This document shows, piece after piece, positions 49,424 to 50,325 of a DNA stretch of 64,000 nt. Each line of letters starts with the position of its first letter. Positions within the stretch are counted from its first letter, which is position 1. The notes under the pieces were generated by a model, which did not search any database, was not told the DNA's origin, and worked only from the letters and a program-made list of their open reading frames with translations. This DNA comes from Scytonematopsis contorta HA4267-MV1. GTDB lineage: Bacteria; Cyanobacteriota; Cyanobacteriia; Cyanobacteriales; Nostocaceae. A program made the position numbers and the translations under genes. The stretch is taken from positions 1-64,000 of the forward strand of contig JAHHIC010000069.1 of the NCBI GenBank assembly GCA_019359035.1, written 5' to 3'.

Positions 49424-49570
49424 CAGCCGTTCACAAAAAGCAATAAATTTGTATCCAGATTAACACCTAAAAAAACAACTTCACTGATTTAGTTCATTAA
49501 TAGCGAAAAGAAACAGAGATATAGGGGGAGGTGAGGCTTTGGTGTAAAATCCCCAAAAATTCCTTCTAGT

Positions 49571-49690
49571 TTTCCGTAATCGCTAAACCTACTGCTGTAT
49601 CTATCATTAGAGAATCAACTATAAAGAAACTATATCTAAACCACGGGGACTTACCCCACCTGAACCCAGTCTTAAGTGATTGGGTTTTTG
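49571..49690 (+). ncRNA. tandem RNA unit A (5' part degenerate)
   Basis: First unit of an array. Its 3' part is well kept: hairpin GGGGACTTACCCC (49645-49657), then terminator AACCCAGTC/GATTGGGTT (49663-49686) and T-run. The 5' part (TTTTCCGTAATCGCTAAACC onward) aligns only loosely with units B and C, and its large stem is lost. Confidence 0.45.
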
Positions 49691-49762
49691 AGTTTTTGCT
49701 GTTTTTCAAGCTTTTCAAGTATTTTTGACTGATTCAGCTGCAAAACTGCATAAGTTCATTTT

Positions 49763-49786
49763 GCTATACCTATAAATAGATATAGA
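49763..49786 (+). promoter_or_regulatory. conserved AT-rich box before unit B (promoter candidate)
   Basis: TTGCTATACCTATAAATAGA and following TATAGAA, repeated before unit C at 50013-50040 (TTGCTACACCTATAAATAGA). After unit C a looser form (TCTATAAATATATACAC) stands at 50276-50292. Conserved spacing to the first hairpin suggests a promoter, unproven. Confidence 0.45.
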
Positions 49787-49945
49787 ACACGAAACACACT
49801 CTGCGGAGAAACATAATAATTTGCTTCTCCGTAATTATTTAAAACGTGGTGTGTTTATTTAAATAAAAACAACTATATCTCATTTATATTTAAAGCACGG
49901 GGACTTACCCCACCTTAACCCAATCCTAAGTGATTGGGTTTTGAG
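49785..49945 (+). ncRNA. tandem RNA unit B (complete)
   Basis: Predicted ~160-base transcript: outer stem AAACACAC (49792-49799) with GTGTGTTT (49849-49856); inner stem CGGAGAA (49804-49810) with TTCTCCG (49825-49831); hairpin GGGGACTTACCCC (49899-49911); terminator AACCCAATC/GATTGGGTT (49917-49940) and T-run. No ORF of useful length. The gene family is not one I can name. Confidence 0.6.
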
Positions 49946-50037
49946 TATTTATTACCCTTCAAGGGTTTCAGATATTTTTAACTAATTCAACCGCAAAACT
50001 GCATAAATCAATTTTGCTACACCTATAAATAGATATA

Positions 50038-50205
50038 GAACACCAAACACACTCTACGGAGAAACATACATAATATATTTGCTTCTCCGTAATTATTTAA
50101 AACGCGGTGTGTTTATTTAAATACAAATAACTATACCTCACTTTTATTTAATGCACAGTAATTTATCCCAAATCAACCCAACCGTTAGTACGGTTGGGTT
50201 TTTAT
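50038..50205 (+). ncRNA. tandem RNA unit C (complete)
   Basis: Same order as unit B: AAACACAC (50045-50052) with GTGTGTTT (50107-50114); CGGAGAA (50057-50063) with TTCTCCG (50083-50089), the loop being five bases longer; the GGGG/CCCC hairpin is lost; terminator changed to AACCCAACCG/CGGTTGGGTT (50175-50200) with pairing kept, then a T-run. This compensating change argues for a working RNA structure. Confidence 0.6.
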
Positions 50206-50325
50206 TTAAGTTCAAGAGTTTCAAGTATCTTTGATTTTTTTCAACGACAAAACTACATAATTTGATGTTGTTGAATCTATAAATATATACACAGTCCAAT
50301 TACCTAAAAGCATAAAAGCGTTTAG

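Follow-up and report, generated by a model that had tools for sequence, protein, structure and literature searches.

The locus considered here raises the question of what a tandem array of structured repeats, each ending in a terminator-like hairpin, encodes in the genome of Scytonematopsis contorta HA4267-MV1. The array lies at 49.57-50.21 kb of the window (the whole 64,000-nucleotide stretch of DNA analysed), on contig C69 of the 10.66 Mb genome. Its neighbours, named by reading, are minus-strand ORFs resembling a membrane protein (208 aa) on one side and a GST on the other. The direct repeats start at 49565, 49819 and 50077 (spacings 254 and 258), and the first-pass annotation was right to describe three tandem direct units of about 250 bases. 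The outer copies share 64% and 84% identity with the middle one (49819), and the inter-repeat regions are also repeated. That no protein is encoded seems likely: the alignment of the units shows no conserved start codon, as judged by eye. We consider it probable that the array is one locus of a multi-copy, stand-alone, NsiR1-like family of trans-acting sRNA genes of heterocyst-forming cyanobacteria. The conserved architecture, the structure and the distribution of this family are observed; transcription, start site, RNA lengths, heterocyst specificity and action in trans are predictions.

The three units, all on the plus strand, are not built alike. Unit 1 (49570-49693) is of a simple type. 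It opens with box 1 (TTTTCCGTAAT, 49570-49580), a DIF1-like -35 element whose hexamer TCCGTA has one mismatch to TCCGGA, followed by box 2 (GTATCTATCATTAG, 49597-49610), a candidate extended -10 element 18 nt past the hexamer. The RNA module (49608-49693, 89.2 bits with model R1, see below) comprises an AU-rich leader, a hairpin GGGG-ACTTA-CCCC (49645-49657, from sequence and folding), and a terminator (49663-49689, from terminator scan and folding). Units 2 and 3 possess about 100 extra bases in front, carrying a promoter-like element (P1) and nested stems. In unit 2, P1 (CTGCATAA...CCTATAAATAGATATAGAA) spans 49746-49787 and precedes a 5' leader (49792-49856) that folds into an outer stem AAACACAC/GTGTGTTT (49792-49799 with 49849-49856) and an inner stem (49802-49810 with 49825-49833). 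The conserved 3' module follows (49862-49947, R1, 84.5 bits), with its hairpin at 49899-49911 and its terminator at 49917-49942, both from folding. Unit 3 displays P1 at 49999-50040, a leader at 50045-50114 (outer stem 50045-50052/50107-50114, inner stem 50055-50063/50083-50091), and a 3' module at 50120-50207 that scores 54.8 bits with R1, in which the GGGG hairpin is decayed and the terminator (50175-50200, from scan and folding) is intact. A remnant of a fourth unit, corresponding to a promoter region or unit start, is found at 50240-50289 (repeat family D4, 76%).

The array is thus real, but the first-pass annotation smoothed over the differences between its units. The single order attributed to all three is wrong in detail, unit 1 being simpler and unit 3 having a decayed hairpin. 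The large stem, with its enclosed CGGAGAA/TTCTCCG pairing, exists in units 2 and 3 and is missing from unit 1; in unit 3, the outer stem is present in the 80-nt fold and absent from the 149-nt minimum-energy fold. Likewise, the GGGG hairpin assigned to every unit forms in units 1 and 2; in unit 3 it is lost through degeneration of GGGGACTTACCCC into CAGTAATTTATCCC, so that function is not required of every copy. A terminator with a T-run is detected by scan in units 1 and 3 (two sites, against a shuffle mean of 0.5); that of unit 2 escapes the scan, its stem being visible and its T-run short. The shift of terminator sequence with maintained pairing is seen across the units, the stems being AACCCAGTC/GATTGGGTT, AACCCAATC/GATTGGGTT, and AACCCAACCG/CGGTTGGGTT. 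Compared with dinucleotide shuffles, folding gives z values of -5.1 for unit 2, -3.7 for the 5' part of unit 3, and -2.8 for the 3' part of unit 1. A sigma-70 consensus scan returns no site on the plus strand and three on the minus strand, with 3.9 expected in all.

Copies of the unit are numerous. Within the S. contorta genome, BLAST yields 16 matches, and R1, a covariance model built from 16 copies of the 3' module (the AU-rich leader together with the GGGG-loop-CCCC hairpin and the terminator), finds 17 copies at 13 places, with tandem copies on contigs C69, C12, and C48. Two of these places (L103 and L104, or L013 and L015; contigs C103 and C7) have an equal R1 score of 96.1 bits and near-identical 3' flanks, which indicates a duplicated region, and their upstream flanks differ. 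Beyond this genome, with a threshold of E <= 1e-3, R1 has matches in 126 of 217 genomes from the window's family. A second model, R2, covering the whole simple unit and built from 54 copies, matches 163 of them at E <= 1e-4; the other 54 include no match under the stricter filters of that search, which lose weak ones. In an order-level sample, 40 of 388 genomes match, all from the same family, which we call Nostocaceae because the named records bearing the unit are heterocystous genera. A scan of GTDB genomes with an exact pattern retrieves 15 stretches, from Westiellopsis, Fischerella, Calothrix, Nostoc, Rivularia, Rhizonema, and Scytonema. A copy is also present in Nodularia spumigena CCY9414, whose published text was searched for transcription start positions and does not give them. 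Tandem arrays recur elsewhere, with a period of ~152 bp (five copies in genome G092) or ~168 bp (five in G051, six in G050), and two queries match 13 and 14 plasmid records, amounting to 15 different plasmids.

Homologues with compensatory pairing in most genomes of the family, found by a covariance-model search of the kind proposed for this array, bear out the earlier view that its RNA structure is selected. Among 110 distinct copies, 13 base pairs are intact in 98.4% of cells, in an alignment that is fitted to the model and leans that way; when the partners are slid, pairing drops to 64% or less. Both sides have changed in 10 of the 13 pairs, which argues for selection of the RNA structure, with 75 such cells against 18.2 in shuffles, none of 500 shuffles reaching as high. 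In single sequences, the stems GGGG/CCCC, GGAG/CTCC, and AGGG/CCCT enclose short A/U-rich loops, and locus L184 carries a terminator of unrelated sequence at the equivalent place. Compensatory structure and an own terminator, as expected of a stand-alone sRNA, are both found.

The same data bear on another explanation, in which the unit is a non-autonomous repeat, MITE-like or a recombination substrate, spread by transposition or plasmid integration, its RNA-like features being incidental. Its dispersal over chromosomes and plasmids would fit, as would the integrase or tyrosine recombinase genes lying within 4 kb in 6 of the 10 plasmid regions read (a raw count). The compensatory pairing, the conserved boxes flanking an unconserved spacer, the recurrent sites across species (see below), and the wholly different terminator at the same place in L184 speak against it, as does the absence of matches when viral contigs were scanned with one exact core pattern. 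Nor is the unit an obvious piece of a mobile element, and we regard this explanation as very unlikely. A phage origin was also discarded, the window DNA having no match in phages and that single exact core pattern none in viral contigs. In the plasmid regions with nearby recombinase genes (L173, L174, L175, L179, L181, and L182), these genes are located 3' of the copy in all six, and in L173 also 5'. Genes for a cobyrinic acid a,c-diamide synthase (ParA-like) and a CopG protein stand directly upstream of the copy in two Scytonema plasmids, and HNH genes also occur near some plasmid copies.

The neighbourhood of the copies bears on whether the RNA would act in cis, as a leader or attenuator, or would be a mere terminator of neighbouring genes. 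In 32 of 46 loci, some of which come from close relatives and are not all independent, the nearest downstream ORF given by a simple ORF caller runs in the opposite direction; the count covers 46 of 47 rows, the second element of L094 being left unseparated. A same-strand ORF comes next in the other 14, as a cis-acting leader would have it, and an SDR-like ORF lies 63-187 bp downstream in six of the seven loci of one group. However, the neighbours differ widely, the predominance of opposite-strand ORFs runs counter to a cis role, and tandem units each have their own boxes and terminator, which makes such a role very unlikely. A type III toxin-antitoxin RNA was rejected as well, there being no constant gene downstream. 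Two sites are recurrent: in nine loci of one genus the unit converges on an FtsH-like ORF, and in seven loci of two genera, Nodularia spumigena among them, it stands beside the SDR-like ORF (both proteins named by reading). These recurrent sites suggest old resident genes and later copies. Two copies (L094 at ~15246 and L114 at ~2992) are close to ORFs resembling, by reading, double-glycine leader (bacteriocin-type) peptides.

How the stand-alone unit might be expressed is suggested by its 5' part. The simple unit opens with boxes TTTTCYGRAAT and GTAGTNATTAT at a near-fixed distance, constant in 52 of 54 aligned units, and the hexamer of box 1 is 18 nt from the GTA of box 2 in 50 of them. Information per column amounts to 0.38 bits in the spacer, versus 1.63 and 1.26 for the boxes. 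This alignment derives from 75 copies, four of which were dropped for a missing box (a TCTGGA variant is seen in three of these); selection by hand to reduce redundancy then brought the other 71 down to 54. The hexamer is TCCGAA in 29 units, TCTGGA in 11, TCCGGA in nine, TCCGTA in two, and one of three other variants in one unit each; it is within one mismatch of TCCGGA in 53 of 54, although the rows were partly chosen by a box 1-like motif and this is not a free estimate. Further copies, themselves found by a box 1-like regex in 33 of 39 usable loci from regions selected out of hit lists, display the exact TCCGGA in 30 of 33. The exact box pair gives 49 matches in 42 of 208 genomes and none when reversed; 31 of the matches were read, and in 29 of them the leader, hairpin, and terminator come next. 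It is absent from the S. contorta genome, where the copies, unit 1 included, have degenerate boxes.

These boxes recall the DIF1 promoters, which, according to the available part of the source, combine TCCGGA, or a variant with a single mismatch, close to -35 with a spacer of 17 bp and an extended -10; in the test described there, heterocyst specificity required both the DIF -35 and the DIF -10 (PMC6133370). Promoters of DIF1 type are reported to be HetZ-dependent in the portion seen of another study (PMC7377430). A hexamer with at most one mismatch to TCCGGA is present in the unit at about -35, relative to a predicted start. In the S. contorta NsiR1 array, TCCGGA begins 35 nt before the Rfam-predicted RNA (e.g. 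3662 and 3697 in L264), and by analogy the start of unit 1 is predicted near 49608. Three observations count against a plain DIF1 assignment: the NsiR1 -10 region AGAACAATTAAG differs from box 2, the box pair is nearly confined to the module, unlike a general promoter class, and the S. contorta genome lacks an exact box pair. Two other regulatory assignments were rejected. The SigJ J-Box (GGGAATACT, as given in the part of PMC11407516 at hand) has no likeness to boxes 1 and 2, and the NtcA motif GTAN8TAC has an unconserved second half-site in the alignment, as judged by eye.

Between box 2 and the hairpin, the spacing of two TATA motifs is 13 in 51 of 54 simple units, and inter-module lengths vary. 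They can be read as DNA or as RNA. In the former case, the same sRNA genes would start at the TATAAAT before the hairpin and produce an RNA of ~50 nt (hairpin and terminator), the boxes and twin TATA being operator or promoter DNA, so that expression need not be heterocyst-specific. The second TATA is indeed almost invariant and begins 13-17 nt before GGG, and Nostoc PCC 7120 has a 51-nt terminator-ended RNA, 4547237r, restricted to heterocystous strains and seen in late growth and long nitrogen deficiency, as far as the accessible text goes (PMC4734099). In contrast, the S. contorta copies L010, L013, L015, and L012, in which box 1 is lost, still have the twin TATA, now preceded by a new promoter-like element; this is easier to reconcile with a part of the RNA. 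The spacing from box 2 to the first TATA also ranges over 23-28 nt, although most values differ by one, with the modules themselves rigid. A start at TATAAAT seems on balance rather unlikely.

With the longer RNA as the preferred reading, the following scheme may be proposed. The ancestral gene would be the stand-alone unit, whose DIF1-like promoter would have box 1 as its -35 and box 2 as its -10 element, with a start ~35 nt past the TCCGGA-like hexamer. Its RNA would measure ~80-110 nt and begin with an AU-rich single-stranded leader, in which two UAUA motifs mostly keep a distance of 13 nt. A short G-rich hairpin would follow, and a Rho-independent terminator would close the RNA. Tandem copies of this gene would have arisen where it resides on the chromosome, and further copies would have reached other sites and plasmids. 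If NsiR1 is a guide, the RNA probably works in trans, mainly while heterocysts differentiate, its leader base-pairing with mRNAs or binding a protein. The rigid twin UAUA leader with the adjoining G-rich hairpin is the best candidate for a contact surface with mRNA or protein. A CsrA-type GGA-loop RNA was rejected, the loop being AUAUA or ACUUA.

Some S. contorta copies, units 2 and 3 included, would subsequently have acquired a structured leader with a further promoter-like element in front of it, their RNA reaching ~150-190 nt with the unchanged module at its end. Judged by their sequence, units 2 and 3 are of this derived type. R2 matches them from 49823 and 50081, respectively, which places TTCTCCG on box 1 of the model and GTGTGTTT roughly on box 2; as far as sequence tells, the large stem is made of the box-1 and box-2 positions paired with new upstream copies of them. 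The inner 5' stem has changed on both sides among derived units (UACGGAGAA/UUCUCCGUA versus UAUGGAGAA/UUCUCCAUA), and two different hairpins replace it in L094 and L103. The P1 pattern, AAACTGCATAAGTTGATTTTGCT-ACACCTAT...TATAGAA, is conserved before derived units. P1-like sequences also exist without the RNA module in genomes G004, G005, and G011 and on S. contorta contig C29 (L224, L225, L226, L232), which, with the derived units, suggests that the module was placed behind another promoter. One truncated derived unit (L233, G000:C86:9567) has P1 and the first stem and no hairpin-terminator module.

If transcribed as predicted, the unit defines a sRNA family widespread in heterocystous cyanobacteria, and it offers, beside NsiR1, a second case in which to ask what drives the tandem multiplication of sRNA genes in differentiating filaments. 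With the derived units, nature supplies a series in which the RNA module is constant and the promoter-like element in front of it varies, and the plasmid copies make the spread of a possible developmental regulator testable. More tentatively, the family might be a second, unlinked tandem sRNA family of the heterocyst programme, parallel to NsiR1 and dispersed, whose copies swap promoter and 5' leader around one RNA-end module, so that a single RNA effector would come under several signals and travel between strains on plasmids. The open-licence literature yielded no account of another dispersed family of tandem sRNAs in Nostocales, and some members may already figure in the supplementary sRNA tables of PCC 7120.

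Several known systems can be compared with this family. NsiR8, NsiR9, and 4547237r of Nostoc PCC 7120 (171, 122, and 51 nt, two of them HetR-dependent) are likewise stand-alone, terminator-ended, of broadly similar size, and restricted to heterocystous strains; this comparison is by description, from the part of PMC4734099 available, the sequences sought for an identity check being absent from the published text. The DIF1 (DIF+) promoters of hetR, patS, patX, and nsiR1 share the TCCGGA-like -35 and the 17-bp spacer (PMC6133370, PMC7377430, both seen in part), whereas box 1 of the new family is longer and its box pair almost private to the family.

The closest parallel in organization is NsiR1. 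Rfam has no match in the window at gathering score, and the eight obtained around the array at E up to 5 are far below gathering scores and are taken as chance. The NsiR1 model (RF02399) matches elsewhere in the S. contorta genome, with 20 matches over 3.5 kb (L264 3141-6675, in G000:C57:28500-35500), a large array beside a putative hetF on contig C57, a CHAT-domain ORF adjoining it. The window array does not lie upstream of hetF, and the earlier reading, which did not recognise it as NsiR1, is upheld; repeated small-RNA genes, NsiR1-like yet distinct and predicted to be transcribed, are its best reading. In PCC 7120, 12 NsiR1 copies are reported, and sibling copies regulate hetF and alr3234, according to the part of the source consulted (PMC9045159). 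In genome G227, a HEARO RNA (RF02033, 136 bits, L266 5282-5501) is located ~0.75 kb past the last NsiR1 match. NsiR1 and the new family co-occur in S. contorta, G222, G227, G062, and G004, and both consist of tandem small RNAs with their own promoters, in which 17 nt separate a TCCGGA-type hexamer from the -10 region. Their RNA sequences and structures, however, are different, R2 matching the NsiR1 arrays at the five hetF-like loci no better than E 0.5. NsiR1 forms one array beside a hetF-like gene, whereas the new family is dispersed over many loci and plasmids, has a different -10, and includes derived units with a structured leader.
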